Source: an uncultured bacterium (GTDB lineage Bacteria > Chloroflexota > Anaerolineae > J036 > Brachytrichaceae). Taken from it: a DNA stretch of 34,601 nt. Below are positions 1,846 through 30,809 of the stretch, piece after piece (within the stretch, counting starts at the first letter, position 1; each line of letters begins with the position of its first letter). A program made the translations under genes and the position numbers. The notes below the pieces were generated by a model. That model had not been told where the DNA came from, made no database searches, and worked only from the letters and a program-made list of their open reading frames with translations. Where the stretch lies: positions 1 through 34,601 of the forward strand of contig CAIXPS010000520.1 of assembly GCA_903921365.1 (NCBI GenBank), in the 5' to 3' direction.

Positions 1846-1847
1846 TA

Positions 1848-6685: not shown

Positions 6686-6729
6686 CGCGCTGATCAGGCG
6701 GAACCGCAATGCGGCCCGCGGGAGGAATT

Positions 6730-7650: not shown

Positions 7651-7675
7651 GCCGGGCTTGTCCGGGAGCACAACC

Positions 7676-8884: not shown

Positions 8885-8909
8885 ACCTTAGAAAACAGAG
8901 ACAAGATGC

Positions 8910-8935
8910 GTAGGGGCAATCCCTTGCGGTTGCCC
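8910..8935 (+). repeat. Dispersed hairpin repeat copy
   Basis: This is a second copy of the hairpin element seen at 1872-1897, with arms GGGCAA and TTGCCC around TCCCTTGCGG. It lies in the 98-bp gap between the GT2 synthase and the sugar transferase, inside the presumed operon. No clear flanking duplication is visible here. Confidence 0.85.
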
Positions 8936-8982
8936 ATGTCGATAGGCGCGATATGGCTGGTGATTTATGGCTGGAGGCGGCA

Positions 8983-9723: not shown

Positions 9724-9728
9724 TCACC

Positions 9729-11282: not shown

Positions 11283-11310
11283 GGGCTGATACACGAAGGA
11301 TGGAACCGAC

Positions 11311-12993
11311 ATGCAAGCAGTAATACTCGCCAGTAACGAGAAAGAGCGCTTTCAGCAGTTAGGGACTGCCTTGGTAGTGCCGATGTTGCCGATCGCCGAC
11401 AGGCCGGTGGTCTCGCTCGCAGTCGAATTGCTGGCGAAGAACGGCCTGCGCAACATCCTGGTGTCCACTTACCACAGCGGAGAATACATTGAAGGCTATC
11501 TGGGCAGCGGGCGGCGCTGGGGCGTCAACTTCACCTACGCCCGCCACCGCCAGCAATTCGGCACAGCCGGCGCGCTCAAGCGTTCCGAAGGGCTGCTCAA
11601 GGAAACATTTGTCGCCGTTTCCGCTGACGCTATCACCATGGTTGACCTGAGCGCCGCATTGGCGCAGCACCACGCGCGCCAGAGCGCCGTAACCGTTGTC
11701 GTTCATGCGTGTGACAAAACATATGCGGGCGCGCGCGTCCTCACCAATGCGTCCGGTCGGGTTACCGCCTGCGGACGCAACCTTCCTGAGGATGTGCTGC
11801 GCAACGCTGGCGTAGCGCTGGCTGGCACTGGCGTGTTCATCATCGAGCCGAGCATTCTGCCCCTGATCCCGGGCGCAACGATCACGGCGATTGACGAGGA
11901 CCTCGTGCCTGCACTGTTAATGCAGGAGCAAGCGGTCGATGTCTTTGTGACTGAGGGCTACTGGAATCCATTGGCGTCTCTGGCCGATTACGACGCGGCC
12001 CAGCATGCATTTCTGCAGAGCGCCTGGCAGCCTGGGCTGGACGCTGCCATCCCCGGCTACACAATCAACGCCTCTCAGATCGCGCCGGGTGTGTGGATCG
12101 GGCGCAACCACGCCATCCACCCGACCGTCAAAATCGCGCCGCCGATCTTCGTGGCCGACAACTGCTACATCGGAAAGGATGTCGAACTGGGACCGTACGC
12201 AGTGCTCGCCGAGAACACCATCATCGACGACGAAGCCACAGTCGCCAATAGCACGATCCTGGCTGGCACCTATGTCGGGCGGCTGGTGAAAGTAGAGGGG
12301 CGCGTGGTCAACAAAACAGTTATCGCCGACCCCGTCACGGGCGAGGCGACGCAGGTCGTGGACGCTTTCCTGCTCTCCGAGACGCGCCCCGCAGTGACGC
12401 CCGATATCTTCCGCCGTTACCTGGATGCGTTGTTCGCGCTGCTCGCTCTCGTCGTCACACTGCCATTGACGCTGCTCATCGGCCTGGCGGTTTTGTTGAC
12501 CAGTGGCGGGCGGCTGATCCGGCGGCTGCCGCGCGTCACCGGACATACAGCAGAGGACGCCAGCAGCGCGCCATACCGCCCATTCGACCTGTTGCGCTTC
12601 GAGACGCGTCGGCGCGATGGAGATCGTTTCACCGCGATCGGTCGTTGGCTGGAGCACTGGGAGTGGAACCGTTTCCCAGAGCTGTGGAACGTCATCCGGG
12701 GCGATCTGCGCTGGGTAGGGGTCAAACCGCTCACGCCACAAGAGGCCGCCCAGGTCGCTGAGGAGTGGCAGACGCGCCGCTTTACCTGTCCATCAGGACT
12801 CACGGGGCTGTGGTACGTTCAGTCGGGTCTGGCGCAAGACATGGACTCCATCCTGGACGAAACGCTCATTGCTGATGCGTATTACGTCGCCACGCGCAGC
12901 CTGCGCGAGGATATACGGTTGCTGTGGCGCACGCCGGCGGCATGGGCGCGCCGGCTGCGGTCGGTCAGTCCTGTGGCGCCAGCGCTAGTGTAA
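11311..12993 (+). CDS. Nucleotidyltransferase-like / beta-helix / sugar-transferase-like fusion, possibly catalytically degraded
   Basis: This 560-residue protein starts at ATG 11311 after AAGGA (11296-11300). Residues 1-240 resemble sugar-nucleotide pyrophosphorylases (MLPIADRPVVSLAVELLAKNGL, SADAITMVD), but the Gly-rich nucleotide loop GxGTRL is replaced by ASNEKERFQQLGTAL. Residues about 260-330 form a left-handed beta-helix (WIGRNHAIHPTVKI, YIGKDVELGPYAVLAENTI). Residues 370-550 follow the sugar-transferase fold, with a hydrophobic hairpin and ELWNVIRGDLRWVGVKPL, but the catalytic Asp-Glu pair of that family is Asn453-Arg454 here (EWNRFPELWNV). Such a fusion would join sugar activation and lipid loading. 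The missing signatures suggest a regulatory or scaffold role, or a diverged mechanism. Confidence 0.78.
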   Translation: MQAVILASNEKERFQQLGTALVVPMLPIADRPVVSLAVELLAKNGLRNILVSTYHSGEYIEGYLGSGRRWGVNFTYARHRQQFGTAGALKRSEGLLKETFVAVSADAITMVDLSAALAQHHARQSAVTVVVHACDKTYAGARVLTNASGRVTACGRNLPEDVLRNAGVALAGTGVFIIEPSILPLIPGATITAIDEDLVPALLMQEQAVDVFVTEGYWNPLASLADYDAAQHAFLQSAWQPGLDAAIPGYTINASQIAPGVWIGRNHAIHPTVKIAPPIFVADNCYIGKDVELGPYAVLAENTIIDDEATVANSTILAGTYVGRLVKVEGRVVNKTVIADPVTGEATQVVDAFLLSETRPAVTPDIFRRYLDALFALLALVVTLPLTLLIGLAVLLTSGGRLIRRLPRVTGHTAEDASSAPYRPFDLLRFETRRRDGDRFTAIGRWLEHWEWNRFPELWNVIRGDLRWVGVKPLTPQEAAQVAEEWQTRRFTCPSGLTGLWYVQSGLAQDMDSILDETLIADAYYVATRSLREDIRLLWRTPAAWARRLRSVSPVAPALV

Positions 12994-15230: not shown

Positions 15231-16505
15231 TCAACCGCCGGTGATCATCCGCCACGGCAGGGCGATGACCTTTTCACCAAGCCGCACAATTTCATCGCCT
15301 AAGTAGAGCAGCACGCCGGCTGCGGCATTCGGGTAATGACCGAGGAAGGCGGTCAGGCCGGCGGTGTCAGAAAACCGGGCTGTGGAGGTCATCTTGACCT
15401 CAATCGCGATCAACTGCCGTCCGTGTTCGATGACAAAATCTACTTCCTCGCCCCGCTGTGTGCGCCAGTAGTGGATCAATGGTTTCGGCGTCATGATCTG
15501 GCACAATACATTCAGGTGATGGAAGATCATCGTCTCGAAAAACGCGCCGAGTTCGCGGGCTTGCCCCAGGCTGTCAATATCGAAGTACCCGGATAGATAG
15601 ACGGCCAGACCGGGGTCGCACCACATCAACTTTGGCGACTTTACAATGCTGACTCCTCGGTTGCCAGAAAAAGCAGTGATGCGTTGGGCCAGATGTGAGG
15701 CCTCGATCAGGTTCAGGTAACGATGGGTGGTGGGCTGAGTCACCTGCGCATCGCGCGCCACCTCGCTTTGATTGAGCAACTGGGCTGTTCGCAAACCGGC
15801 GAATTGCATCACGCGCCGGAAATCCGGTAACGCGTCAATGCTCGCAAACTGTCGCAGGTCACGCTCAAGATATGTTGCCACATAACCCTCCCACCATTGC
15901 ACCCATAGATCGGGGCGTGGCAAGTCGAAGAGCGGCGGCATGAAACCGCGCAACAGCCACTCGATCGGACTGATCTTCGTTTGCGCCCTCTCGTCCGCCC
16001 CTGATTGCTCTGTGGAGGGTATCTTCCCATTTAGAAGGTCTGTGAGAAGCGTGGGCGCAGGCTGTCCGAGCGCTTCGCCGATTGTCATCGGGTTGAGCAC
16101 GAAGTAAACTGCTCGGCCTGCCAGGCTTTCACTGACTTGTTTCATCAGTAACAGGTTTGCGGAACCGCTGATAACGAAACGCATCCGGCGCCGATCTCGA
16201 TCCACGGCGAGTTTTACTGCGGACAAAATGCCGGGCGATTTCTGCACTTCGTCAATCACAACTGTGGATGCTCCAGCCCAGAGGTCTTCAGGATGACTCA
16301 GTGACCGTTCCAACGCTTCCGGGTCGTCCATAGTAACGTAACGCCAGGAGCGCATCGGCTCAGCGTGGCGCAGCAAAGTGCTCTTGCCCACCTGGCGCGC
16401 GCCGGTCACAACGACGACGGGGTGATCCTCGACGGCTGCCTGGATGCGCGCAGTCAGCCAGCGCGCCTTGTAGTTTAATTCACCGGGTGAATAAATTCTA
16501 TTCAC
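15231..16505 (-). CDS. COG1373-type AAA ATPase with C-terminal DUF4143 domain
   Basis: This 424-residue protein belongs to the AAA_14/DUF4143 ATPases, whose biological role is poorly known. Visible are the Walker A VVVTGARQVGKSTLL, Walker B STVVIDEVQKSP, a sensor-like FVISGSANLLLM, a winged-helix segment (SEVARDAQVTQPTTHRYLNLIEAS) and a C-terminal PD-(D/E)XK-like stretch (EEVDFVIEHGRQLIAIEVKMT). The start is GTG 16505; no ATG lies nearby in frame. A TATTAT -10 box ends 7 bp upstream, so the mRNA is probably leaderless. Two 15-bp palindromes cover the start and -10, and the winged helix suggests the protein may repress itself (inference). It is probably an accessory gene. Confidence 0.85.
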   Translation of the reverse strand: MNRIYSPGELNYKARWLTARIQAAVEDHPVVVVTGARQVGKSTLLRHAEPMRSWRYVTMDDPEALERSLSHPEDLWAGASTVVIDEVQKSPGILSAVKLAVDRDRRRMRFVISGSANLLLMKQVSESLAGRAVYFVLNPMTIGEALGQPAPTLLTDLLNGKIPSTEQSGADERAQTKISPIEWLLRGFMPPLFDLPRPDLWVQWWEGYVATYLERDLRQFASIDALPDFRRVMQFAGLRTAQLLNQSEVARDAQVTQPTTHRYLNLIEASHLAQRITAFSGNRGVSIVKSPKLMWCDPGLAVYLSGYFDIDSLGQARELGAFFETMIFHHLNVLCQIMTPKPLIHYWRTQRGEEVDFVIEHGRQLIAIEVKMTSTARFSDTAGLTAFLGHYPNAAAGVLLYLGDEIVRLGEKVIALPWRMITGG

Positions 16506-16550: not shown

Positions 16551-17534
16551 TCATTTTGCGGCAGATTCCGCCGGAGCCGGCGGCAGGTATGGGTTGAATA
16601 TCTCCACTCGGTTGCGCCCGGTGTGTTTGGCCTGGTACAGCGCCTTGTCGGCGCGCTCCAGCAGCTCCGCCGCCTTAGTCACGCCGAGCGATGGGATTGC
16701 CGCGATGCCAAACGATACTGTGATGCGGATCGGGCCGGCTTCAGCATTGAGCGTAGTCTGCTCAATCTGCTCGCGCAGTCGTTCGCATGCGACTGCTGCG
16801 GCGTGCGCGTCAGTCATCGGCAAGATCATGATGAATTCTTCACCCCCATAGCGCGCAATTACATCTCCCAGCCGCAACCTGCTCTGCATCAGTGCGGAGA
16901 CGTTCTGCAGCACCCAGTCGCCGGTGGGGTGGCCGTATTTGTTGTTAACCTCGCGAAACAGGTCGATATCAGACAGCACGATTGCCAGCGCGGTCTTGTA
17001 ACGTATCGCAAACGAGAACTCCTTCTCAAACACCTCGGCGAAATAGTGCCGGTTATACAGCCCGGTCAAATAATCCGTCAGGGCGATGCGTCGTAGCGCC
17101 TGGTAGGATTGCTTCTCGCTCGTCAATCGCGATAGCAGTTCGTCGATCGTGTTTTTGATGCGCAACAGCGCCTCAACATGCGCCAGTAGTTCGCGCGGGT
17201 TATAGGGCTTGGCCAGGTAATCGTCCGCGCCGACGGTGGTAAGCGCGCCGATGCGATCCTCCATCCCGGTGCGCTCGCCCGTGAAGATCAGGATCGGGAT
17301 GTAGGTAGTGACTGACCGGCGCACAAAGCGGCATATCTCGAAGCCGTCTATGTCCGGCAACACCACGTCCAGCAGCAGCAGATCCGGGTGGGTCGTCTGG
17401 GCAAGTTCTATGCCTGCGCGGCCGGTCTCGGCGACAGTGACGCGGTACCCCGCGCCTTCCAGCAAACGACGCGCAAACAACGCCTGTGTGCGGCTGTCTT
17501 CCACGAGCAAAATGTATTTTTTCTCAGCGTCCAT
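16551..17534 (-). CDS. Response-regulator diguanylate cyclase (REC-GGDEF, WspR/PleD-like)
   Basis: This 327-residue protein is last in the chemosensory operon, 12 bp after cheB. The receiver (residues 5-125) has ILLVEDSRT, the phospho-acceptor Asp56 in LLLLDVVLPDIDGFE, and Lys109 in YLAKPYNP. A short coiled linker leads to a GGDEF domain (150-310) with DYLTGLYNRHYF, SDIDLFREVNN and the intact active site GGEEF (230-234). The inhibitory I-site RxxD is present as RLGD (221-224), five residues ahead. It should condense two GTP into cyclic di-GMP when phosphorylated and be inhibited by its product. Known WspR has the same REC-GGDEF architecture. CheA in this operon is the likely phosphodonor. Confidence 0.93.
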   Translation of the reverse strand: MDAEKKYILLVEDSRTQALFARRLLEGAGYRVTVAETGRAGIELAQTTHPDLLLLDVVLPDIDGFEICRFVRRSVTTYIPILIFTGERTGMEDRIGALTTVGADDYLAKPYNPRELLAHVEALLRIKNTIDELLSRLTSEKQSYQALRRIALTDYLTGLYNRHYFAEVFEKEFSFAIRYKTALAIVLSDIDLFREVNNKYGHPTGDWVLQNVSALMQSRLRLGDVIARYGGEEFIMILPMTDAHAAAVACERLREQIEQTTLNAEAGPIRITVSFGIAAIPSLGVTKAAELLERADKALYQAKHTGRNRVEIFNPYLPPAPAESAAK

Positions 17535-17546
17535 AAAATACCAAGT

Positions 17547-18680
17547 CTAGCAGCGTAATATCTGCGTAAGTATCATCAACCGTTCGGCGATCAGTTCGAT
17601 GGGTAGCGTCTCCATGGCGGCGCCCATTTCCACGGCCACCTTGGGCATGCCGTAAACCACGCTGCTGCTCTCGTCCTGCGCAATGGTGTACGCGCCAGCG
17701 TTGCGCATTGCGAGCAGCCCGCGCGCGCCGTCCTGTCCCATACCTGTGAGTTGCACGCCAACCGCGCGCGGCCCGTAGCTCAGCGCCAGCGATTCAAACA
17801 ACGCGGTCACCGACGGACGATGCCCGTCCACAGCGCCGCCATTGTCCAGCGCCGCTATACCACCCCGCCGGATTACCAGATGGCGGTCGTCGGGTGCGAG
17901 GTAGGCAGCGCCTGCCAGCAGTATCTGGCCGTCCTCAACGACCTGGCATGGGATGCGCGTGGTCTGCGCCAGCCAACTCGCCAGTCCAGCGATGAAGCCG
18001 CGGCTCATGTGTTGCACGATCACAATAGGCGCGTTGACGGTTCCACCGCCTGACGCCGGCGCAGTAGTGAGCCCGGCCAGGATTGTCTGCAACGCGGGCG
18101 GCCCACCTGTCGACACGCCAATCCCGATGATCGCAGGACGCTCGCGCAACAGCATCGGCGCCGTGGAGCGAGGAGGTGCGCCACCCGCGCGTTTCTGCAG
18201 CCACAACGGGCGACTCACGACCTTGACGCCCGCCATGGTCTTGATCTCGTTGATCAGTGTCTCGGCATTATTTCCGCTGCCTGGCCGGTCGTGCAGCGTG
18301 GGTTTCTCCAGCACCGACAGTGCGCCCAGTTCAATTGCCTTGAAGCTGATGTCAAACAGGGTGTCTGTGTTTGTGGACGGCGCGGCTCCGTCCGCGGACG
18401 GCACGGCTCCGCCCGCGGGGTACGCCCCGCCAGCTGCCGTCAGCACGACAATCGGGCGCGGCGATTCACTCATGATCAGCCGGATAGCTTCATAACCATC
18501 CATGCCCGGCATGTTGATATCCATAGTGACGATGTCGGGCTGCAATTCGACGCAACGTGTCAACGCCTCTCGCCCACTGCGCGCTTCGCCCACGACAACC
18601 AGCCCGGAGTCAAGCTCGAAGAGCATGCGCAGGAGCAGTCGCGCTGTTGGCGAGTCGTCGACGATAAGAATACGTATCAT
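17547..18680 (-). CDS. cheB: CheB protein-glutamate methylesterase (receiver + esterase)
   Basis: This 377-residue protein removes methyl groups from receptor glutamates (and deamidates glutamines), which resets receptor activity. The receiver has MIRILIVDDS and phospho-acceptor Asp54 (IVTMDINMPGMDGYE). The methylesterase domain keeps the Ser-His-Asp triad: Ser190 in GIGVSTGGPP, His224 in IVQHMSRGF and Asp317 in LTGMGQDGARG. Unusually, about 20 residues rich in Gly, Ala and Pro (83-103) are inserted after receiver strand 4, just where phosphorylation signals are passed on; the insert comes from palindromic tandem repeats. It lies 18 bp after the CheA gene. In a Wsp-type system this protein (WspF) limits cyclase activation. 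Confidence 0.95.
   Translation of the reverse strand: MIRILIVDDSPTARLLLRMLFELDSGLVVVGEARSGREALTRCVELQPDIVTMDINMPGMDGYEAIRLIMSESPRPIVVLTAAGGAYPAGGAVPSADGAAPSTNTDTLFDISFKAIELGALSVLEKPTLHDRPGSGNNAETLINEIKTMAGVKVVSRPLWLQKRAGGAPPRSTAPMLLRERPAIIGIGVSTGGPPALQTILAGLTTAPASGGGTVNAPIVIVQHMSRGFIAGLASWLAQTTRIPCQVVEDGQILLAGAAYLAPDDRHLVIRRGGIAALDNGGAVDGHRPSVTALFESLALSYGPRAVGVQLTGMGQDGARGLLAMRNAGAYTIAQDESSSVVYGMPKVAVEMGAAMETLPIELIAERLMILTQILRC
18375..18430 (-). repeat. Palindromic in-frame repeat insert in cheB
   Basis: The segment contains inverted repeats GGACGG-7 nt-CCGTCC (18375-18393) and GCGGGG-TACG-CCCCGC (18415-18430), with a related imperfect unit between them. Units are 18-21 bp and encode GGAYPA, GGAVPSA and DGAAPST. 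The frame is kept, which adds a loop of about 20 residues to the receiver domain. Confidence 0.8.
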
Positions 18681-18698
18681 GCCGTCTGTTCGTGTGTG

Positions 18699-21194
18699 TT
18701 AACCAATCAGTCTCTCGATCGTTTCGAGCAACTCGCGCTGGTCGAAGGAACTTTTCACAATATAGGCGTCGGCGCCCGCCTCCATGCCGCGCACGCGATC
18801 CTCAGGAGAATCGAGCGAAGTAACCAGGATGACGGGAATGCGCGCCAGGCGCGGGTCGCGCTTGACTGCCTCTGTCAGTGCGAAGCCATCCATATTCGGC
18901 ATGTTGATATCCGATACTATCACGTCTGGGAGCAAGGATTGCGCAACTTGCTGGTCAGTCCCCTCGTTCTCACTCAACATCTGCCAGGCTTCAAGCCCGT
19001 CAGCGGCAGTAACCACATCATACTCTGCATTGCGCAGAATGTGTTTGACCAGCGTGCGCGTGGTAATCGAATCATCGACCACCAGCACACGCCGCGCCTG
19101 CGAACGACTGGGCGCGCTGACTGTGGGCGGGGACTGCGCGGGCCGGTTCTGCATCGTCTTCATCAGGTCGGCCATGTTCAGGATCAACACCACCTGCCCG
19201 TTGCCAAGCACCGCCGCGCCCGCAATGTTGCGCACACGCCGCACTTGGCGGCCCATTGGTTTGATCACCACCTCTTGAGTGGAAAGCAAGGTGTCCACTC
19301 GCACGGCCAGTCGTCTGTCGGCCAGACCAACGATGACTACCGGAAACCGCTCCGCCTGCTGCGCAGATGCCCCAGGAAGCTCAAGCAGATGCGCCAGGTC
19401 AAACAGCGGCAGCAGCCGATCATCGAGATGGATCGCCGGTTTGTTCTCAATGGCGCCAACCTGCGCCGAGTTTACGCGCATGATGCGCTCAACATTCATC
19501 AGCGGAAGCGCGATGACCTGACCGGCCGTCTGCACAAGCAGCACATTGCTGGTGCTGAGCGTCAGTGGCAGTGTCATCGTAAAGCGCGCGCCTTGGCCCA
19601 ACTCGGTGTGCACCTGAATCACGCCGCGCAGTTGCTCAATGTTTTTGCGCACGACATCCATGCCGACACCGCGCCCCGATATGCTGCTCACCTTATGTGC
19701 GGTGGACAGGCCGGGGCGGAACATCAGCTCGAGCGCTTCCTCGTCGCTGAGCGCTGCGGCCTCGTGCTCTGACAGCATGCCGCGCTCGACGGCTGCCTGC
19801 CGCAATGCCTTGACGTCAATTCCTTTGCCATCGTCGCTGACTTCGAGCACCAGCCGGTCGCCGCGTTGTTCAGCCCGCAACCGCAGAATGCCGTGGGCAG
19901 GCTTGCCCGCCACCTCGCGCTGCATGGGCGCCTCAATGCCATGGTCAATCGCGTTGCGCACCAAGTGTGTAAGCGGATCCTTGAGCAGTTCAAGCGCCTG
20001 GCGGTCTACTTCGGTGTTCGTGCCTTCAGTCTGCAAGAATACCTCCTTGCCGCGCTCGCGCGCCAGGTCGCGCACCATGCGTGGGAAGAAGTCGAACAGC
20101 GTGGCAATTGGGAGCATGCGCATGTTACGGATGCTGTCCTGCAGGTCGCTGGTGACAAGTTGCAAATGGTTATGGTCGCTGCTCATGCGCCGTAACAGCA
20201 GGTCGAGTTCGGCTTTGATCGCCTTGATTTCACGATCGCTTGCGGTCAGGGTTTCATTCAACAGCGCCGCAGACGGTGAAACCGAGTCGGGGGCGCTGTT
20301 GGGCGATGGAATCGCTGGCGTTGCAACCGCCGCGTCGCGCGGATGGAACGTCTCCGCTCGTTGCAGCCGGGTCATCTGCGCTCGCACCTTCCGCCAGTCC
20401 TTCTGCCACGCGGCCGTCTGCATTTGCAATTGACGGACCTCCTCGACAAGCTGTCCCATCCGCATGCGCGCCACCAGCAACTCGCCCATATTGTCCATCA
20501 GAGTGTCCAGTTTGCCCGTCGATACGCGCACACTGCGGATGTCGTCCGATGCGCTGCCGGGCCCCGATGATTGTTGTCCCAGCCCACTCGGCTGGTTGAC
20601 ATTCCCCTTTCCCGGTGTCGCGACTGCGTCAGTCCCCGCGTTACTGCGCCGCGTTACTGCGCCTTCTTTATGTGGCAGAACAGGCGCAAACAGATCAGAC
20701 TCGAACGGCGTTGTCCCTGTGGGCGCCGAGGCCGTGTCTTCACCTGCGGGCGCGTTGGCGAACTGCTGTGGGACGGATTCGCTCTCAACTTCGCGCGTCA
20801 CGCTGTCGAGCCGCACAAAGAGCGCATTGATCTGCGCCGGCGCATAGGTCTCGTGGCGCAGGTGCGTGCTCATGATATCGCGGATCGTATCGACGGCAGC
20901 AAGCAGGGTGTCAGCGTGCGCGGGTAATAATGTGCTGTTGTGTTTACGCACCTGACCCAGCGCCTCCTCCATCCGATGTGCAACTGCTTCGATGTCTTCC
21001 AGCCCAACCGCGCGCGCGGCGCCTTTGATGCTGTGTGCGGAGCGGAACACTGCTGAGAGCAACTCTGCGCGCGGAGCCTCTGCGTGTCCCTGCTCAAGCG
21101 CCATCAACCCTTTGTTGAGCGTTTCGAGGTGTTCCTCCAGTTCCGGCTGGAAGATCGCCATCAGTTCCTGTTGGATTTCGTCAGGTTGAAGCAT
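18699..21194 (-). CDS. cheA: Hybrid chemotaxis histidine kinase CheA with C-terminal receiver (WspE-like)
   Basis: This 831-residue protein has one Hpt domain (residues 1-110, phospho-His54 in FRSAHSIKGAAR), a Pro/Ser linker, and a dimerisation region. Its HATPase has an N box in LVRNAIDHGIE, and DDGKGID and GRGVGMDVV as ATP-lid motifs. A CheW-like domain follows (VLLVQTAGQVIALPLMNVERI), then a receiver (RVLVVDDSITTRTLV with phospho-acceptor in VIVSDINMPNMDGF). CheA autophosphorylates under receptor control and passes phosphate to response regulators. The attached receiver can act as a phosphate sink, as in WspE, FrzE and PilL/ChpA types. No separate CheY gene is present, so its main targets should be CheB and the REC-GGDEF protein. 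A 13-bp direct repeat (20638-20663) lies in the linker. Confidence 0.95.
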   Translation of the reverse strand: MLQPDEIQQELMAIFQPELEEHLETLNKGLMALEQGHAEAPRAELLSAVFRSAHSIKGAARAVGLEDIEAVAHRMEEALGQVRKHNSTLLPAHADTLLAAVDTIRDIMSTHLRHETYAPAQINALFVRLDSVTREVESESVPQQFANAPAGEDTASAPTGTTPFESDLFAPVLPHKEGAVTRRSNAGTDAVATPGKGNVNQPSGLGQQSSGPGSASDDIRSVRVSTGKLDTLMDNMGELLVARMRMGQLVEEVRQLQMQTAAWQKDWRKVRAQMTRLQRAETFHPRDAAVATPAIPSPNSAPDSVSPSAALLNETLTASDREIKAIKAELDLLLRRMSSDHNHLQLVTSDLQDSIRNMRMLPIATLFDFFPRMVRDLARERGKEVFLQTEGTNTEVDRQALELLKDPLTHLVRNAIDHGIEAPMQREVAGKPAHGILRLRAEQRGDRLVLEVSDDGKGIDVKALRQAAVERGMLSEHEAAALSDEEALELMFRPGLSTAHKVSSISGRGVGMDVVRKNIEQLRGVIQVHTELGQGARFTMTLPLTLSTSNVLLVQTAGQVIALPLMNVERIMRVNSAQVGAIENKPAIHLDDRLLPLFDLAHLLELPGASAQQAERFPVVIVGLADRRLAVRVDTLLSTQEVVIKPMGRQVRRVRNIAGAAVLGNGQVVLILNMADLMKTMQNRPAQSPPTVSAPSRSQARRVLVVDDSITTRTLVKHILRNAEYDVVTAADGLEAWQMLSENEGTDQQVAQSLLPDVIVSDINMPNMDGFALTEAVKRDPRLARIPVILVTSLDSPEDRVRGMEAGADAYIVKSSFDQRELLETIERLIG

Positions 21195-21233
21195 CGCGTG
21201 TCTCCGTGCATTCCATGTTCACGCTCGCGCCCA

Positions 21234-22868
21234 TCAGTCTACCTTGTAGCGCTTGACTAGTTGCGCGAGCTGGCCGGCCAGGTTATCCAGGTTCCGCGCG
21301 GCTTGTTCCACCTGTCGCATGCCGGTCTGGGTCTGCGTCGCGCCGACGTTGATATTTTCCACCGCCTGGGTGATCTGGTTCATCCCGGCCAACTGCTGGC
21401 GCGCGCTGGCTGCAATCTGTTGCGCAGCCTGGTTCACGCGCTGGGTGTGTTCACGGATTGCCCGCACCACTTCGCCGCTGGATTTGGTCAACTCGACGCC
21501 GGTCTCGGCGCGCTTGGTGCCCTGCTCGGTGACCATGACGGCGGTGTTGGCTGCCTTCTGGATGTCGCCCAGGATGCTCTTGACCTGCCCGGTGGCCTGG
21601 CGCGACTGGTCGGCCAGGTTGCGCACCTCAGACGCAACGACGGCAAAACTCCGCCCGGCATCGCCGGCGCGGGCAGCCTCCATGGCGGCGTTGAGCGCAA
21701 GCAAGTTGGACTGGTCGGCGATGTCGTTGACGGTGGCGATGATCTCGCCAATAGCCTGGGTCTGTTCGCTCAGGGCCAGGATGGTCTCGGCGATGGTGCG
21801 GACCTGTTCCTTCAAGTTGAGCATGCCTTCCTCGGTCTTCTGGATGGCCTGCAGGCCGCGGTCGGCCAGTTGCAGCGAGTTGCCGGCCATGTCGGAAACC
21901 ATCTGTGCGCGCTCCGCCGATTGTTCGGATGTCTGGCGCACTTCTTCCAGGCTCGATGTGGTCTCGATGACGGCCGCGGCCTGTTCCGTCGCTGTAGCGG
22001 ATTGTTCGGCGGTGGCACCCGAAATCTGCGCTGTGGCGCTCGTTATGTTGTTCATCGCTTCGCGCAACCGCGCAGTGTTGTCCTGCAGACTATCCAGCAT
22101 CGCGCGAAACGCTTTTTCGATCTCGCCGATCTCATCACGGCGCGGGGCGTTGTGCGCAGGATTCATTGCCATCGCCCCCGTCAGGTCGCCAGCAGTGACC
22201 AGATCGGCCATTTTTGCCAGCTGCATGAGTGGGCGGGTGATGCTCTTTAATAGCATAGTGATGATGACGAGGAAGAAAATAAAGAGCACAATTGTCGCGC
22301 TGATCATGATCGTGCTGATCTGGCGTCCCAGCGAGATGATGGCATCGGCCTGTGCTTTGATTTGTCCTGTCACGATATCCTGCAGTATGGCAGCGTCACT
22401 GCTGACGGCGCTTACGGCCGCATCCAGCTGGGCAATCTGGGCCTGCGTCTCACCCTCGCTGGATCCAGCGACCGGGTGAGTGATCTCGTCCACGGCGCTG
22501 GTGTAATCGGCCACATCCTTCTTGATTCTGCCGATTACGTCGAGCTGATTCTGATCCTCGTTTCGCGCAGCGATCTGATCCAGCACTGTCTCGATCTGCT
22601 TCAATTGCTCGCGCGCGAGCTTGATTTCGTTGTTCTGAGGCGCAACAAGATATCGGGCTGTGGTAAACCGCGCTGTGATCATCTGCGCTTTGATATCGCT
22701 GACCATCAGTAGTAGCGTTTGCTGAGTCCCGGCGAGTTGCGTCATCCCACTCGCCACCTGGTTGTATTGAAACACAGTCACGCAGGCCTGAATCGAGAGC
22801 AGGAGCAGCGTGACATAAATCACACCAGGCACCTTTATTCTGATACGGATATTGTTGATGAATTCCAT
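21234..22868 (-). CDS. Methyl-accepting chemotaxis protein
   Basis: This 544-residue receptor has a membrane helix near residues 12-32, an extracytoplasmic helical domain of about 150 residues, and a second helix near 188-208. A HAMP domain follows ([20 protein letters not shown]), then a long signalling coiled coil. The hairpin tip reads [21 protein letters not shown]. The next residues are [20 protein letters not shown], where most receptors have [16 protein letters not shown], including the neighbouring paralogue. No pentapeptide tether for CheR is visible at the C-terminus ([11 protein letters not shown]). It should bind CheA and CheW in arrays and sense an unknown stimulus. The signalling half is almost identical to that of the next receptor, so they arose by duplication or are homogenised. 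Confidence 0.93.
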
Positions 22869-22933
22869 TTTACGCTCCGCTTTTGCTTCAATGTCTTTTC
22901 ATTGCGACCAGTGCCCTTACCGCGCGTTCTGCC

Positions 22934-25048
22934 TCAGGTCAGCTTGTACTGCTGCACCACATCTGAAAGTTGCGCTGCCAGGTCGTTCAGGTTGCGCGCG
23001 GCCACTTCCACCTGGCGCATACCGGTCTGGGTCTGCGACGCGCCGACGTTGATGTTCTCCACGGCGCGCGTGATCTGATCCATCCCGGCTAACTGCTGGC
23101 GCGCGCTGGCGGCGATTTGCTGCGCGGCCTGGTTAACGCGCTGGGTATGCTCGCGGATCGCGCGAATAGCTTCGCCAGTAGACTGGGCCAGTTCGACCCC
23201 GGTCTCGGCGCGCTTGCTGCCTTGCTCGGTGACCATGACGGCAGTGTTAGCCGCTTTCTGGATGTCGCCCAGGATACTCTTGACTTGCCCGGTGGCCTGG
23301 CGCGACTGCTCGGCAAGGTTGCGCACTTCAGAGGCGACGACGGCGAAACCGCGCCCAGCCTCGCCGGCGCGGGCCGCTTCCATCGCCGCGTTGAGCGCGA
23401 GCAAGTTGGACTGGTCGGCGATGTCGTTAACAGTGGCAATGATCTCGCCAATTTGCTGGGTCTGCTCGCTGAGAGCCAGGATGGTTTCGGCGATAGTGCG
23501 AACCTGTTCCTTCAGGCTGCGCATGCCCTCCTCGGTCTTCTGAATAGCCTGCAAGCCCCGGTCAGCCAGCTGGAGTGAGTTGCCAGCCATGTCGGAGACC
23601 ATTTGCGCGCGCTCCGCGGACTGTTCGGAGGTCTGGCGCACTTCTTCAAGGCTGGAGGTGGTTTCGGCAACAGCGGCAGCCTGTTCGGTCGCGGTAGTGC
23701 TTTGTTCAGCTGTGGCAGTGGATATCTGCTGTGTGGCGGTGGTGATGTTGGCAGTGGATTGGCGCAGCCGGACAGTGATCACCCGAAGGCCTTTGATCAT
23801 GGTGGCGAAGGCATTGCCGAGTTCATCGCGTTCGGAGCGCGGTTTGATCTCAATGGACAGGTCTCCGCTGGCCATCTGGCGAGCCCTGTCGGCCATCGGC
23901 ATGATGTAGTGATTCACCATGCTGCGGAAGGCGCGTTCTATCTCGCCGATCTCGTCCCGGCGCACCAGCACCGCGCGCTCAATCTCGTGCTGGAACCCTG
24001 TCCCGGCCAGGTCACCCTCAGCGACCCTATTGGCAGCCTTGACCAGGTTAGCGAGTGGTTGCGACATGCTGCGCGCCATCGAAAATACCGATGTCGCGCC
24101 AGAGGCGACGATAACAATGGAGACGATGAGCAGCCCCAATGACAGGGTGTCGCTGGCATCCTTGATCTGGTTCGCGATCACCTGGTATTGCGCGCTCATG
24201 GCGGCGATCAGTGTCTGGCTGTTCTTCAGCATCTCGGTTTCGAGCGGATTGAGCCGGATCGTTATGATCTGGGACTGGCGCGCAAACCCGGCTTTCACGG
24301 TGACGAACCCGAGGGCATAGGACTGCGTAGCGGTTCTGGCATCCGATAGCAACAGGCGATTAGCAGCGTCCTTTATCAGCGGATCGAGCGCGGTGAACGC
24401 TTGTGTCGCCAGTTGATTCTGTGCATCAAACTCGGCAACGAGCGCGTCGTCACCGCTGGACTTGTAGCTGGTTTCAATTACACGAAGCTGGTTGAGCCTG
24501 TTGCGGGTATCAGAGGCGGCCAGAACTGCGGGCGCGCCGTCATTTGCGACTGCCGCGCGCGCCACCGCATCCAGTTTGTCCGTAGCGGCCGTGTGCTGCA
24601 CATCCAGCACATCGCGGCTGACCTTCTGACGCTCATCGATAATGCGGACGATATCCTCGAACGCAGAACCGTAGTCATTGACACCCTTCTTAATCGCGTC
24701 CAGCGTGGCGCGGTCTTGCGCGTTTCCTATGATTGTGTAAGCCTGTGTGATCTGCTCCTGATACGCGCTGAAGGCGTCACGGGCGAGCTTCAGATTGCCC
24801 GGAGTCTGTTCGGCAGCATATTGGTTGATCGTCAGCCGTAACGGCGCGATCCCCCCGGAAATCTGGCCGGCCATCGTCAGCCCTGCCGTCTGCGCGCCTG
24901 CCATATTGTTGATCCGCCTGTCGATCGTGGTGTTATTCAGGTAGGTTGCACTGTTGAAAAGCGCCATCAACACCATCGTAAAAACGAAGCCGCCGTTCAA
25001 CTTGGCTCCGATGCTCAGGTTATTTGTAAATTTATTCAAAAAGCCCAT
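22934..25048 (-). CDS. Methyl-accepting chemotaxis protein with tandem HAMP domains
   Basis: This 704-residue receptor has a membrane helix near residues 15-35, a large helical extracytoplasmic domain of about 260 residues, and a second helix near 300-322 ([19 protein letters not shown]). It then has two HAMP-like segments in a row ([20 protein letters not shown] and [19 protein letters not shown], each followed by a DE-x-G motif). The signalling tip [41 protein letters not shown] is canonical. The sensor halves of the two receptors are unrelated at sight, so they probably detect different cues or states while sharing output. It is encoded 18 bp after a CheW gene. Confidence 0.93.
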
Positions 25049-25066
25049 ATCCTGATATCTCCATGC

Positions 25067-25624
25067 TCAGATGTTTTCGTTCACAATGATTTGCGGGTCC
25101 GAGAGCAACCGTTCCATATCCAGAATGACCAGCATGTCGCTCGTGATTCCGCGCGCATAGTCCTGCAACTTTAACGACAGCGTCGCCGGCGGCGGATACA
25201 GCCGGCTGGCCGGGCCGCGCTCGATCGTGGGCATGTCGTTGGCCAGCAGCGTGAGCTCCATCGCGCCGCCCTCGTGCGTCCCGCCTACGACCAGCAGGAT
25301 GTAAGCGCCTTCCGAGATCGGTTGCGCCGGCTGGCCGAGGAAGCGCGACAGATCCATGATCGAGTACAGATGCCCGCGCAGGTTGATCAGCCCGATGATG
25401 AACGACGGGGCGCACGGCACCGGCGACCATTGCAGCGTGTGCAACGCCTGTATCTCGCGCACCATCGTGGTAGGAATGCCGAAACGGTCGTTGCCCGAGT
25501 GAAACGCGACAACCTCAATCAGGTCTTCGGCTTCAGTATTCACCATTGGCGGTTGTGCCAGAAGCCGGGCGCGCTCCTGCAGGACAAAGCTGACGCGCGC
25601 ACTATCAAGTTGAATATCTGTCAT
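25067..25624 (-). CDS. cheW: CheW-like coupling protein
   Basis: This 185-residue protein is a single CheW domain after an N-terminal extension of about 35 residues. Diagnostic segments are DLIEVVAFHSGNDRFGIPTTMVREIQAL, PSFIIGLINLRGHLYSIMDLSRFLG and a C-terminal helix ending MLVILDMERLLSD. CheW links CheA to receptor tips. It lies between the CheR-TPR gene (21-bp gap) and the first receptor gene. It is one of two CheW genes in the operon, as in Wsp systems (WspB and WspD). Confidence 0.92.
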   Translation of the reverse strand: MTDIQLDSARVSFVLQERARLLAQPPMVNTEAEDLIEVVAFHSGNDRFGIPTTMVREIQALHTLQWSPVPCAPSFIIGLINLRGHLYSIMDLSRFLGQPAQPISEGAYILLVVGGTHEGGAMELTLLANDMPTIERGPASRLYPPPATLSLKLQDYARGITSDMLVILDMERLLSDPQIIVNENI

Positions 25625-25645
25625 GGTGGATTACCTATGTGCTGG

Positions 25646-27145
25646 CTATGCGCCAAAATGGCGCAGCGCAATAGCGCGATGGCGCGCAGCCTCCGCATGG
25701 CGGCCAGTCCGCTGGTAAAGCGCGCTGATGGTGTAGTGAGCCAGTGTTAACGACGGGTCAAGGTACAACGCCTTGCGCAGGCTATCCACTGCCTCAGTGA
25801 GTTCACCCAGTTCGTCGTGCACCAGCCCAAGTAAATAGTGGCTCTCGGCATAGAGCGGGTCCAGTTCAATGGCCTGCTGTGCAAACAGGCGCGCTTCCTG
25901 CAAATGACCGCCGTCCGCCGCGCGCTTTGCCAGGCCGCAACGCGCGTACACACAACGCGGGTTGTGCTGAAGGCACGCTTCCGGGCTGAGTGGCTCGCTA
26001 CGCACATCGGTGTCTGTTGCGGCGAGCGCGGTTGTCATGTTATACGAGCAACTGGCGCAGTCCACGCGCACAGGGATGAGTGCGATTGGTTGCGCGTCGA
26101 CTAATGTTGGTCTGACCACCGGTTCCATAACCGGTATTGGCGCGGCCTCTCCCCTCTCCCCTATTCCTTCTCCCACGCTCCTGCTCTCCTCATCCCTCTC
26201 TCTCCTTCTCTCCTCTTCTCCCTGTCCTTTGCAATAAACCATCGCGTTGCCGATGCGCACCAGTTGGAACTGCGCATAAATGTCCGGGTGGTACTCGCTC
26301 GCGCCGACGATCAGCCATCCGCCCGGCGCCAGGCAACGCTGGAAGCGATTGATCACACGCTGGGTGACATCGATCGGCAAATAGATGATCACATTGCGAC
26401 ACAGGATAAGATCGAGGTCGGCGGTGAAGTTTGTTGTGGAAGGATAGCTGTCCTCGGCCAGGTTGAGGTAGGCGAAGGTGACCATGCGCCGGATAGCGGG
26501 ATTCAGCTCATACAGGTCGCCCTCCTGCGCAGCAGATGCGTCCTGCGCACCAGGCGCGTCATGCGCATACGGCGCAAAATAGGTGTGGCGCAGCGACAAC
26601 TCGGTCTGACGAAATGACCATGGCCGATAACGCGCAACGCGGGCGTGGTGCAGGGCGCGTTTATTCAGGTCAGTCGCCAGCAGCGTGATTTTCCAGCGCT
26701 CAATATCCGGAAGCAATTGATCCAGGAGGATCGCGAGTGTGTAGGCCTCTTCGCCGGTGGAGCAACCGGCGCTCCAGATACGCAGCGCGCGGTCAGCCTG
26801 GTGTGCCGCGATCAGCGCCGGCAGGATGGACGTGCGCAGCGCGTGCATCTGCTCGGTGTCGCGGAAGAAATAGGTCTCAGGGATCGTCAGGAACTGGATC
26901 AGGCGATCCCAGATGGGAGAGTTGGTTTCAGCGGTCTCAAGCGCGTCCAGATATTGGGCAATCATGTCGTGGCTTTGCATCTCCCCGATATAACCATGGT
27001 GGCGGGCCCCATCAAGGCAACCCTCTTCCAGCACGTGAAGGCGTCTGTCGCCGAATGCCAGACCGGTGCGCGCCGCCACGAGCGCACACGCGCGCGCGAG
27101 GTCGTCGATTGAGAAAAGCGTGGTGGGCACGGTGGTGGATGTCAT
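25646..27145 (-). CDS. cheR: CheR methyltransferase with C-terminal TPR repeats (WspC-like)
   Basis: This 499-residue protein methylates receptor glutamates with S-adenosylmethionine. An N-terminal helical domain leads to ETYFFRDTEQMHALRTSILPAL and the SAM site RIWSAGCSTGEEAYTLAILL, then LATDLNKRALHHAR and LILCRNVIIYLP. After residue 310 comes a charged Glu/Arg linker (KGQGEEERRRERDEESRS), a segment with five cysteines (CASC, then C-x6-C-x3-C-type spacing around PRCVYARCG), and TPR repeats (AIELDPLYAESHYLLGLVHDELG; ALYLDPSLTLAHYTISALYQRTG). TPR-bearing CheR proteins are typical of Wsp and other non-flagellar systems and may bind receptors lacking a tether. Three in-frame 18-bp repeat units (26519-26566) add about 14 residues to the methyltransferase domain. 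Confidence 0.93.
   Translation of the reverse strand: MTSTTVPTTLFSIDDLARACALVAARTGLAFGDRRLHVLEEGCLDGARHHGYIGEMQSHDMIAQYLDALETAETNSPIWDRLIQFLTIPETYFFRDTEQMHALRTSILPALIAAHQADRALRIWSAGCSTGEEAYTLAILLDQLLPDIERWKITLLATDLNKRALHHARVARYRPWSFRQTELSLRHTYFAPYAHDAPGAQDASAAQEGDLYELNPAIRRMVTFAYLNLAEDSYPSTTNFTADLDLILCRNVIIYLPIDVTQRVINRFQRCLAPGGWLIVGASEYHPDIYAQFQLVRIGNAMVYCKGQGEEERRRERDEESRSVGEGIGERGEAAPIPVMEPVVRPTLVDAQPIALIPVRVDCASCSYNMTTALAATDTDVRSEPLSPEACLQHNPRCVYARCGLAKRAADGGHLQEARLFAQQAIELDPLYAESHYLLGLVHDELGELTEAVDSLRKALYLDPSLTLAHYTISALYQRTGRHAEAARHRAIALRHFGA
26519..26566 (-). repeat. 18-bp in-frame tandem repeat in cheR
   Basis: Units at 26549-26566, 26531-26548 and a partial one at 26519-26530 (minus strand) encode AHDAPG, AQDASA and AQEG. 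They contain small inverted repeats such as GCGC-CTGGT-GCGC and TGCG-CAGGA-CGCA. The repeats expand a loop after the TYFAPY segment. Confidence 0.82.
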
Positions 27146-27154
27146 GGGTTCCTG

Positions 27155-27697
27155 TTATAGCTTTGCATCCCCCTGGGACTGGGGCAGGCGGCTGTATTCG
27201 GGCGAGGCGAGTAGACGCGCGGGATCAAGCAGAAAAATCACCTTCCCGGCGTGGTGCACCGTGCCAACCATAAAAGGCGAACGCGCCAACGGCAGGTCGG
27301 GCGTCTGGTCGATGGTCAGGTCGAGCACATCGCACACTTCGTCGGCAACCAGGCATATTCGACGCCCCATGATCGACATGATCACCAGGCGGTCGCTGAG
27401 GCTGGGCGCCCGTGCCGGCAACCCAAAGATGCGGCGCACATCCAGCACCGCGGCCAAATGTCCTTCGATATTGATGACGCCATACAGCCCGGCAACCCCG
27501 TCCGGCACGGCGGTGACAGCGGCCATGCGCACGGCGCGTTCAACACTCTCCAACGGCAGCCCATAGGTCTGCCCGTGAACGCGGAACGTGACAAAGCGAT
27601 GTATCAACTCGGCGGTAATGACGCCCTTCTCTGAAGGCCCCATCCCGGAGGGAGGCTCGTACTCACGCAAACTGACCTGTCGATTCAGATTGTCCAT
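27155..27697 (-). CDS. cheW: CheW-like coupling protein (first gene of the chemosensory operon)
   Basis: I choose ATG 27697, preceded on the minus strand by AAGGA; a TTG at 27709 is the only alternative in frame. The 180-residue product is one CheW domain: HRFVTFRVHGQTYGLPLESVERAVRMA, GVAGLYGVINIEGHLAAVLDVRRIFG, ICLVADEVCDVLDL and FMVGTVHHAGKVIFLLDPARLL. It lies 9 bp before the CheR-TPR gene. The pair of CheW proteins flanking CheR-TPR is the same gene order as wspB-wspC-wspD. It may serve one of the two receptors preferentially (inference). Confidence 0.92.
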   Translation of the reverse strand: MDNLNRQVSLREYEPPSGMGPSEKGVITAELIHRFVTFRVHGQTYGLPLESVERAVRMAAVTAVPDGVAGLYGVINIEGHLAAVLDVRRIFGLPARAPSLSDRLVIMSIMGRRICLVADEVCDVLDLTIDQTPDLPLARSPFMVGTVHHAGKVIFLLDPARLLASPEYSRLPQSQGDAKL

Positions 27698-27991
27698 TAT
27701 CCTTGCCAATCACCACACAGCGTCGCTAACCCGATACTCGATGCTGCTAGGAGTGTAATGTAGGCGTGTGTTCCCTGCAAATCCGTTAAATAGCGTATTT
27801 CATAACCAATGGGTGAATATAAACATTGCGGTTTGTGCGACAGAGTTGCAGAATTACGCCATCTTTTTTGCTCGATGACGATTTCCTATTGCGCCACAGC
27901 GTAAACCTTGAGCGCCGTTCCGACATTCGGCGGACCAAGGGCATGTTGGACTCGGTGTCAACATTCATCGGCATATTTATGCGCCCGATAG

Positions 27992-28336: not shown

Positions 28337-29467
28337 CTACCTGAGCGTGCTTGCCACCAGCACCCCATTCGCCCAGTAGAAGCCAGTCGCACCATCGGGA
28401 AGCAAGTCGTAAGTCGAGCTGAAGGGATATGGTTCACGGTCAGCACCGGTCACACGCGCGCCGTCGAGGAGATCGCCCGGCGCGAGGTCGCCAATGACGC
28501 GCCCATCGGCGGTGGGGTGGCCGGGTGAGGCGCGCAACTCGCGCCCATCGCTCAGCCGCATATGCACGATCTGATGTTCGGCGGGCACAGCGGTGTGTGC
28601 GACCTGTGCGACGGATGCTGCGATGCGTTCACTCCGTTGATTCAGCGTCCACACCTGCATCCCAACCCGGATGTCTTGAACCGATACCGGCCCATCCGGC
28701 GTGTCGATGCGCGTGCCGAGTGACAGACAGAGCGGGCATACCAGCGGCACACTGCGCTGTTTGACGATGGTGATGCTTCCCTGGGGTGTGATCGTGCCAT
28801 CGGTCTGTTGCCCGATTTCTACCGTGCCTGAACCACGTTGCGATACGCGCACACTGAACTGGTATGCGTTATCTGCCGGGGTGAGTGTGACTGCGCTAAG
28901 CAGCTTGTGTTCGCGGTAGATCAGCAACCCCTGCGCAGGCGTGAGCGAGGCATTGGTCAGCCCGAGATGCGCCAGGATGCTGTTGTACTCGTCTGCACTT
29001 TTACTTACCGATGCCAGCCACTTCTCAGCAGACGCCTCTTCGCTGCCGCGTGCCACCGGATAAATGTCGCTGTCGCAAAAGAAAACGGGCGGAGCCCCGA
29101 CGCGTCCAAAACGGGCGATGATCAGGTAGCGCAACTGCGTCTGCGTCAGGCTGGCGGTGGATGTGGCCGGCGCAGTTGGCGGCACTGCGCTCGCTTTAGT
29201 GGATGGGATCGCCGATGGATTCACGACGGTATCAGCAGTCGGACGCGCTGGTGGCTGCGCGGTTGCGTTTGCAGTCAGACGCGATGTGGGTTGCGCGATC
29301 CGTGTGCCTGGTGTGGCGAAGATCAACGGTGTGGTCGTGACTGGACTGCTTGGCGTTGTCGGTAGCGGCCACACGCTCGTCGGACTGATATCCGGCAGCA
29401 TAGTGCAACCCGCTGTGCAGAACAGCGCCAAGCCAAGTAAAAGAAGGAAGGACAACTTACGGTTCAT
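28337..29467 (-). CDS. Lipoprotein with C-terminal Hint (hedgehog/intein-type) domain
   Basis: I choose ATG 29467, whose product begins MNRKLSFLLLLGLALF and ends its signal with the lipobox TAGC; the frame upstream shows no signal. The protein is 376 residues. Residues 25-100 are a Pro/Thr/Ala-rich linker. A mixed domain (about 105-245) follows. The last 130 residues form a Hint fold: Cys247 in CLSLGTRIDTPDGPVSVQDI, VGMQVWTLN, LSDGRELRASPGHPTADGR with the B-block His317, LAPGDLLDGA, and the end ATGFYWANGVLVAST. Hint domains cleave or rearrange peptide bonds through the first Cys. There is no C-terminal His-Asn and extein, so N-terminal cleavage, cross-linking or a non-catalytic role are all possible. 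It would be exposed on the cell surface. Confidence 0.82.
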   Translation of the reverse strand: MNRKLSFLLLLGLALFCTAGCTMLPDISPTSVWPLPTTPSSPVTTTPLIFATPGTRIAQPTSRLTANATAQPPARPTADTVVNPSAIPSTKASAVPPTAPATSTASLTQTQLRYLIIARFGRVGAPPVFFCDSDIYPVARGSEEASAEKWLASVSKSADEYNSILAHLGLTNASLTPAQGLLIYREHKLLSAVTLTPADNAYQFSVRVSQRGSGTVEIGQQTDGTITPQGSITIVKQRSVPLVCPLCLSLGTRIDTPDGPVSVQDIRVGMQVWTLNQRSERIAASVAQVAHTAVPAEHQIVHMRLSDGRELRASPGHPTADGRVIGDLAPGDLLDGARVTGADREPYPFSSTYDLLPDGATGFYWANGVLVASTLR

Positions 29468-29591
29468 GGCACGCTTAAATTCCAAACCCTTGTGAGGGGA
29501 TGATACTTCAGAAACGTGAGAATAACCCGCCTGTGACCAGGCGCGCATCATGCACCAGCACGTCAGCAACCCTTTCCAGCATACGCTTAAA

Positions 29592-29640
29592 GGCAGCGCC
29601 ACTACCTGTTTTTATATATAAAACAGGCAGTAGCACTGCC
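29592..29640. promoter_or_regulatory. 49-bp hairpin upstream of the ATPase promoter
   Basis: Two 21-nt arms (29592-29612 and 29620-29640) around TATATAT pair at 18 of 21 positions; the inner eight, CCTGTTTT and AAAACAGG, are perfect. The three differences are transitions, some compatible with G-U pairing. It ends 6 bp before the -35 box of the following ATPase gene. It may be an operator; a short T-run after it leaves a terminator role open, although no plus-strand gene lies upstream. Confidence 0.65.
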
Positions 29641-29681: not shown

Positions 29682-30809
29682 ATGTATACGCGATACTGTG
29701 AGCCACTGGATGCGCGCATGATGCCCAATAAGGTGCTTGTGATCTACGGGGCGCGCCGAGTCGGTAAGACCACTTTATTGCGCCAGTATCTCAACCAGAC
29801 CGCTTTCAAATACAAGCTCGACTCCGGGGATAACATACGGACTCAACAGATTCTTAGCTCCCAGGATTTTGGACAGATACTTTCTTATGTTGAAGGTTAT
29901 GACCTGCTGGCAATCGATGAGGCTCAGAACATACCGAATATAGGTATAGCTTTGAAAATCATTGTTGACCAGGCGCCAGGCATACGAGTCATCGTGACTG
30001 GGTCATCCTCGTTTGAACTTGCCGGCCAGGTGGGCGAACCGTTGACTGGGCGCAAAATGACCCTGAACTTGTATCCAATGGCGCAATCTGAGCTTTTATC
30101 CGTTTACAACAGGTTCGAACTGCGCGAGAATCTGGCCGATTTCCTGATCTATGGCAGTTATCCCGAAGTGCTTCAGGCGACTACGCACAACGCCCGCATC
30201 GAGATATTGACTGAGATTGCCAACGCCTACTTGTTAAAAGACGTTCTGGCGCTGGACCGGATTAAAAGCTCCCGCACGTTGCTGGATTTATTGAAGCTGC
30301 TTGCTTTCCAGGTTGGGAGTGAGGTGGTGCTTACGGAGTTGGCTACCCAACTGGGGATCAACGTGAAAACCGTTCATCGTTATCTCGACATCCTGGAAAA
30401 GGCTTTCGTTATTTATCGGTTGGGTGGGTTCAGCCGGAATCTACGCAAGGAAGTCACTAATAAATCGAAATACTATTTTGTCGATAACGGCATTCGGAAT
30501 GCCCTCATCGCCCAGTTTAACGGCGTCGACCAGAGAAACGATCTGGGGGCGCTCTGGGAGAACTTCATGGTGACGGAAAGGCAGAAGTATCGGTCATATC
30601 TCCCGCTACATGCGAACGTTTATTTCTGGCGCACCTACCAGCAACAGGAAATCGATCTTATCGAAGAGCACAGTGGGAGGCTGGCGGGGTATGAGTTTAA
30701 GTGGTCAGCCAGTAAGGGAAGTCGCCCGCCGGCTGGCTGGATGGAGACCTATGAAAACGCGGAGTATCAGGTAATCAACCCGGATAATTATCTGGAGTTC
30801 ATCCTGTGA
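29682..30809 (+). CDS. COG1373-type AAA ATPase with C-terminal DUF4143 domain
   Basis: This 375-residue protein is a second member of the AAA_14/DUF4143 family. It has Walker A VLVIYGARRVGKTTLL, Walker B DLLAIDEAQNI, a sensor-like VIVTGSSSFEL, and the segment GSYPEVLQATTH found in the family. A winged helix (LTELATQLGINVKTVHRYLDIL) follows, and the C-terminal nuclease-like fold ends with QQEIDLIEEHSGRLAGYEFKWS. Cellular function is unknown. Its AT-richer upstream region, strong leaderless promoter and position between unrelated genes suggest lateral acquisition. It converges on the GT2 gene with an 18-bp gap. Confidence 0.87.
   Translation: MYTRYCEPLDARMMPNKVLVIYGARRVGKTTLLRQYLNQTAFKYKLDSGDNIRTQQILSSQDFGQILSYVEGYDLLAIDEAQNIPNIGIALKIIVDQAPGIRVIVTGSSSFELAGQVGEPLTGRKMTLNLYPMAQSELLSVYNRFELRENLADFLIYGSYPEVLQATTHNARIEILTEIANAYLLKDVLALDRIKSSRTLLDLLKLLAFQVGSEVVLTELATQLGINVKTVHRYLDILEKAFVIYRLGGFSRNLRKEVTNKSKYYFVDNGIRNALIAQFNGVDQRNDLGALWENFMVTERQKYRSYLPLHANVYFWRTYQQQEIDLIEEHSGRLAGYEFKWSASKGSRPPAGWMETYENAEYQVINPDNYLEFIL

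Follow-up and report, generated by a model that had tools for sequence, protein, structure and literature searches.

Among the known systems closest to the locus reported here are the Wsp systems, in which a chemosensory array is wired to a GGDEF protein with a receiver domain (REC-GGDEF). A synteny-based survey of 2021 regarded Wsp as exclusive to the beta- and gammaproteobacteria and described an alternation of its output between WspR and WspH (PMC8552884). Wsp annotations have also been reported in Planctomycetes (PMC6461901), and the main text of a 2012 study, by way of Wuichet and Zhulin, places chemosensory pathways of the CheR-TPR or alternative cellular function (ACF) type in about 80% of Chloroflexi, with flagella lacking (PMC3447774). 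That main text counts about 20 REC-GGDEF regulators in CheR-TPR clusters and does not state which phyla bear these outputs. In view of these two reports, a preliminary description of the present locus, which held Wsp-like systems to be known mainly from Proteobacteria, was overstated.

In this study we analyse a stretch of 34,601 bp (the window), a contig of an uncultured bacterium of the Chloroflexota class Anaerolineae that carries an operon of eight chemosensory genes. We consider it likely that the operon encodes a complete ACF-type array with a diguanylate cyclase as its dedicated output. A literature search without most subscription journals returned no description of the exact eight-gene unit. 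ACF systems in Chloroflexi and REC-GGDEF proteins beside CheR-TPR were already known in 2012, from the main text cited above (PMC3447774), and the most interesting aspect of the locus is the possibility that its wiring is convergent with that of Wsp.

The operon, its receptors and its surroundings

The genes run from 27709 down to 16551 on the minus strand, all co-directional, in the order CheW, CheR-TPR, CheW, MCP1, MCP2, CheA-REC, CheB and REC-GGDEF (Table 1), with intergenic gaps along the direction of transcription of 9, 21, 18, 65, 39, 18 and 12 bp. Pfam confirmed the domains of all eight products far past the cut-off. The start codon of the first CheW is either the ATG at 27697, used in the preliminary description, or a TTG upstream at 27709. 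Motifs are intact in CheA (His54 and the receiver), in CheB (the S/H/D residues) and in REC-GGDEF (Asp56, GGEEF and RxxD), where the inhibitory site, RLGD, lies exactly five residues upstream of GGEEF. Judged by motif, the last protein has what is expected of a diguanylate cyclase, namely GG[DE]EF, an RxxD I-site and a phosphorylatable receiver. Several earlier statements are borne out by these results: the arrangement on one strand with gaps of 9-65 bp agrees with the ORF positions and Pfam, the intact GGEEF and RxxD sites with the motif check, and the operon does have two receptors instead of one and a gene order unlike that of Wsp. In GC content the operon (0.604) does not differ from the remainder of the window, no donor for a lateral transfer of the operon was found, promoter and terminator scans gave a number of sites not above chance, and neither Rfam nor tRNA scans gave a hit in the window.

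Table 1. Genes and motif positions of the operon in window coordinates.
Feature	Position	Strand	Description
CheW-a	27155..27709	-	Pfam CheW 4.4e-26; G001 orthologue 74% identical; WspB/D-like role
CheR-TPR methyltransferase	25646..27145	-	Pfam CheR 1.8e-45 and TPR; WspC-like architecture
CheW-b	25067..25624	-	Pfam CheW 1.2e-20
MCP1	22934..25048	-	two TM helices, HBM-type periplasmic sensor, tandem HAMP, 40H-like signalling domain; Pfam MCPsignal 2e-42, HAMP x2
MCP2	21234..22868	-	two TM helices, four-helix-bundle sensor, HAMP, 40H-like signalling domain; MCPsignal 7e-39
CheA-REC hybrid kinase	18699..21194	-	Pfam Hpt, H-kinase_dim (extended dimerisation region), HATPase, CheW, REC
CheA phospho-accepting His54	21033..21035	-	motif AHSIKGAA
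CheB methylesterase with receiver	17547..18680	-	Pfam CheB_methylest 2e-56, REC 9e-20
REC-GGDEF diguanylate cyclase	16551..17534	-	presumed output; Pfam GGDEF 2.8e-43, REC 1.6e-23
REC-GGDEF receiver phospho-Asp56	17367..17369	-	motif LLLLDVVLP
REC-GGDEF GGEEF active-site motif	16833..16847	-	RLGDVIARYGGEEF, residues 221-234

A genome of the same genus (G001; contig record L004, CAIQQO010000240.1) has the identical eight genes in the identical order. When 18 flanking genes of the window were searched by tblastn, with the cyclase as positive control, the cyclase alone was found on the G001 contig, so conservation covers the eight-gene unit but not its surroundings. Of the eight genes, that of the cyclase is under the strongest constraint: its product is 90% identical to the G001 orthologue, and its dN/dS is 0.037, against 0.08-0.16 for the other seven, at synonymous sites that are near saturation. 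Chance assembly is excluded by the shared genes and order together with the purifying selection on all eight (dN/dS 0.04-0.16). A matching CheA was found neither in three other genomes of the genus nor in the sampled members of the family.

Positions 380-12993 of the window hold a polysaccharide cluster with a GH44 glycosidase, which includes a fusion of a WecG/TagA-type glycosyltransferase with two STAS domains (9729-11282) and a single protein made up of a nucleotidyltransferase, hexapeptide repeats and a bacterial sugar transferase (11311-12993). This cluster was considered as a partner of the operon and dropped, since not one of the flanking genes searched for by tblastn turned up on the G001 contig. 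The operon is flanked on both sides by AAA_14/DUF4143 ATPases (15231-16505 and 29682-30809), relatives of which are present on many plasmids and which may mark insertions. At 28337-29602 lies a putative secreted protein or lipoprotein with a short match to a Hint (intein/hedgehog-type) domain.

Across their last 290 residues the two receptors are 85% identical, as against only about 35% in the N-terminal part. Such near-identical signalling domains below unrelated-looking sensors (HBM and four-helix) suggest either that a sensor was exchanged following a duplication or that gene conversion took place. The predicted MCP1 sensor, modelled from two sequences, resembles the McpS ligand-binding domain (2yfb; TM(target) 0.87, rmsd 2.2), and that of MCP2, also modelled from two sequences, is a plain four-helix bundle that matches four-helix sensors at modest scores. 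This predicted pair suggests that small-ligand sensing is at least as likely as surface sensing. Over the aligned stretch the signalling hairpin of MCP2 exceeds that of Tsr (chain 1qu7) by 28 residues, or four heptads, a length consistent with the 40H class.

The host genome and the proposed signalling route

The host genome (6.88 Mb in 603 contigs, 97% complete) contains three CheW domains, all inside the operon. As these are the only ones in the genome, the operon CheA is the only CheA found, and the operon is, as far as the assembly shows, the sole chemosensory kinase system of its host. Three MCPs were found, the third away from the operon on a 3.7-kb contig (L122 1-1452, genome G000, contig C322); it has a C-terminal CZB zinc-binding domain, and the genome yielded no second CheW/CheA system with which it might work. 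Its alignment to MCP2 spans 328 residues and contains only six gap positions and no heptad-sized gap, so it could enter the operon's array, and we think that this orphan receptor probably shares that array with MCP1 and MCP2.

A search for FliG that was positive in four control genomes gave no match in the host genome. The earlier remark that CheY and flagellar genes are missing is true of the operon, and genome-wide FliG was not found either. PilZ and the MshEN c-di-GMP receptor were likewise looked for in the host genome and not found; a c-di-GMP-I riboswitch search gave no match there, but none in the control genomes either. GGDEF matches number 21 and EAL matches two. With single-sequence queries, and with a few of the remaining GGDEF loci truncated at contig ends, a receiver domain was detected at one of the 21 GGDEF loci, that of the operon cyclase. 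Further phosphorelay proteins are present in the genome. Three features associated with ACF systems in the main text of the 2012 study (PMC3447774) are seen here: a multidomain response regulator as output (REC-GGDEF), a CheR-TPR fusion in the cluster, and no flagellar link, as FliG was not found in the genome.

Because the only CheW domains of the genome, and hence its only CheA, are in the operon, and no FliG match was found, the most likely route leads from the receptors through CheA to the cyclase. The preliminary description had likewise named c-di-GMP as the most likely output, which is upheld by the single CheW/CheA system and by an intact, terminal REC-GGDEF that is both the operon's most constrained gene and the only GGDEF locus with a detected receiver. 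We infer phosphotransfer, c-di-GMP synthesis and the orphan receptor's membership of the array; every signalling step follows the precedents of Wsp, PleD and DgcR. Two receptors with different sensors and near-identical signalling domains would share, with the two CheW, one array that governs how CheA autophosphorylates. From CheA the phosphate would move to the receiver of REC-GGDEF, and the phosphorylated protein would dimerise via its coiled-coil linker and synthesise c-di-GMP, with the RxxD site providing feedback inhibition of the GGDEF domain. The receivers of CheA and CheB may serve as phosphate sink and adaptation feedback, and CheR-TPR and CheB would reset the receptors. A second target of CheA is possible; many relatives in the class use a lone REC.

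Phylogenetic placement and rival readings

In the CheA tree the window groups with kin from its class (57 rows, support 100/98), apart from the Wsp clade (100/100), and in a tree with Tfp-type references added its clan (39 rows, 100/99) stands apart from the Wsp, flagellar-type and Tfp-type kinases. This clan reaches beyond the class, for it also includes some proteobacterial CheA-REC kinases, of Magnetococcales, Gallionella and Iodobacter. The CheR of the window lies in a non-Wsp group of 26 rows with CheR-TPR proteins of the class (99/96), the Wsp CheR clade having support of 100/100, and its REC-GGDEF falls outside the WspR clade (100/100). AU tests of joining the window to Wsp gave p = 0.013 for CheA, 0.048 for CheR and 0.039 for REC-GGDEF, which is moderate evidence against the union, and p = 0.058 for CheB, for which the union is not rejected. 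Membership of Wsp was thus rejected for CheA, CheR and REC-GGDEF, and an identification of the system as Wsp is not supported; the component set, called exactly that of Wsp in the preliminary description, does include all components of WspA-F and WspR, with one MCP in excess. The system would work like Wsp but is probably not Wsp. Wsp operons of Alphaproteobacteria (L141, L142 and L010, from Mesorhizobium pMLb, Novosphingobium and Ancylobacter) cluster with Pseudomonas WspR and Cupriavidus Wsp, in contrast to the 2021 survey, which limits Wsp to beta- and gammaproteobacteria (PMC8552884).

It is quite unlikely, in our judgement, that the operon is nevertheless a true Wsp that came from Proteobacteria by inheritance or transfer, gained a further receptor and a rearranged gene order, and senses surface contact. 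Such an origin would fit the shared component set and the 40H-like receptors, WspA having been assigned to the 40H class (PMC2577667); the joint clade of CheB is not rejected, and the rejections for CheA, CheR and REC-GGDEF are only moderate. Against it, the fully supported Wsp clades of the CheA, CheR and WspR trees exclude the window, and the nearest CheA proteins outside the genus are those of class members (39-53% identity over the best segments), whereas proteobacterial CheA-REC matches reach 31-37%. The operon moreover lacks the wspA-wspF synteny that published definitions require (PMC8552884) and has two receptors, one of them with an HBM sensor. Highly improbable is a type IV pilus system (Tfp-class, Chp-like) or a flagellar one that steers movement. 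The window CheA does have an extended dimerisation region, and a published assignment to Tfp exists for Chloroflexota CheA proteins whose dimerisation domains are long (PMC10782961), but the AU test rejects a single clade of this CheA and the Tfp-type set (p = 9e-11), the kinase has a single Hpt, and no FliG was found in the genome. The Chp-like operons of the class also differ, consisting of REC, CheW, MCP, CheR and a CheA with two Hpt (G073, G315). The preliminary description had named a flagellar or type IV pilus placement of CheA as evidence against its reading; the kinase lies in neither group, and this assignment was rejected.

The cyclase could also be secondary, or driven by other kinases, with the main target of CheA a stand-alone receiver encoded elsewhere. 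Many sister operons in the class do have a lone REC after CheB, and the genome has its further phosphorelay proteins; the operon itself, however, has no lone receiver, and REC-GGDEF is the terminal and most constrained gene of a unit kept in G001 without flanking synteny. We hold this to be unlikely.

Outputs on a shared core and comparison with known systems

The reading that we prefer, an ACF-type array with a cyclase as its dedicated output, can be set among the related loci of the class. A search across the class found a CheA match at 1e-60 or better in 107 of 396 genomes; the best CheA loci were annotated and 55 compared for gene content. A core of CheW, CheR-TPR, CheW, one or more MCPs, CheA-REC and CheB recurs, and the outputs on it vary from a lone REC or a REC-histidine kinase to, in a few loci, a c-di-GMP module. 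c-di-GMP domains occur at six of the 55 loci, in five genomes: the window, G001 (twice), G308, G269 and G159. The G308 locus has REC-GAF-GGDEF and belongs to a third CheA lineage. In G269 a GAF-GGDEF-EAL gene lies within the chemosensory operon between MCP and CheA (L183 5834-8218), and in G159 a GAF-HD-GYP gene lies inside it between CheR-TPR and CheW (L172). The second operon of G001 (L123 5082-10326 and L137; contigs C161 and C166) has REC-GGDEF followed by REC-GAF-HD-GYP, a predicted cyclase and phosphodiesterase pair under one CheA. A joint clade of its CheA with that of the window is rejected (AU p = 4e-10); for a joint origin of the two cyclases, whose sequences are very divergent, AU p = 0.39. 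Going by gene content and trees, the core is a CheA-REC lineage common in the class, and the cyclase is one among several attached outputs.

The kinase, methyltransferase and output enzyme of the operon appear to be of a lineage different from those of Wsp, so this kind of circuit seems to have arisen on more than one occasion. The two REC-GGDEF operons of G001 have different CheA lineages, and a third lineage carries REC-GAF-GGDEF. On balance we lean slightly towards the hypothesis that Wsp-type wiring, from array to REC-GGDEF, came about repeatedly in a single class without descent from Wsp, the array core being a plug-in sensor that has repeatedly captured c-di-GMP outputs and that in the present host is the sole chemosensory system and acts without PilZ proteins. 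Should the wiring prove convergent, Wsp would be just one of several solutions, and the independent cases would reveal which contacts (CheA with receiver; receiver, linker and GGDEF) are needed to plug a cyclase into an array. The hypothesis predicts that a chemosensory array controls c-di-GMP in bacteria in which neither flagellar nor PilZ genes are detectable and in which the c-di-GMP effector must therefore be something else.

Among known systems, the swapping of outputs in the class mirrors the alternation of WspR and WspH: the WspH variant of Burkholderia (PMC8552884) similarly exchanges REC-GGDEF for a REC-histidine kinase on one core, but is of a proteobacterial lineage and without cyclase. 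The Chloroflexi ACF pathways, as given in the main text of PMC3447774, share CheR-TPR, CheA-REC, multidomain response regulators and the absence of flagella. The output protein has the REC, coiled-coil linker and GGDEF architecture of PleD (1w25/2v0n), DgcR (6zxb/6zxc/6zxm) and WspR (3bre), and is about 30-33% identical to PleD and WspR while lying outside the WspR clade; in the alignment its linker is seven residues, one heptad, longer than that of PleD and seven shorter than that of WspR, differences of exactly seven at which the helical register would be kept. With the Wsp systems of Pseudomonas, Cupriavidus and Mesorhizobium the operon shares CheR-TPR, two CheW, CheB, a terminal REC-GGDEF, a CheA-REC without a P2 match, a four-helix receptor and a 40H-like signalling domain. 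It differs from them in the clades of its CheA, CheR and REC-GGDEF, in its second receptor with an HBM sensor, and in its order of W-R-W-MCP-MCP-A-B-DGC, that of Wsp being MCP-W-R-W-A-B-DGC.
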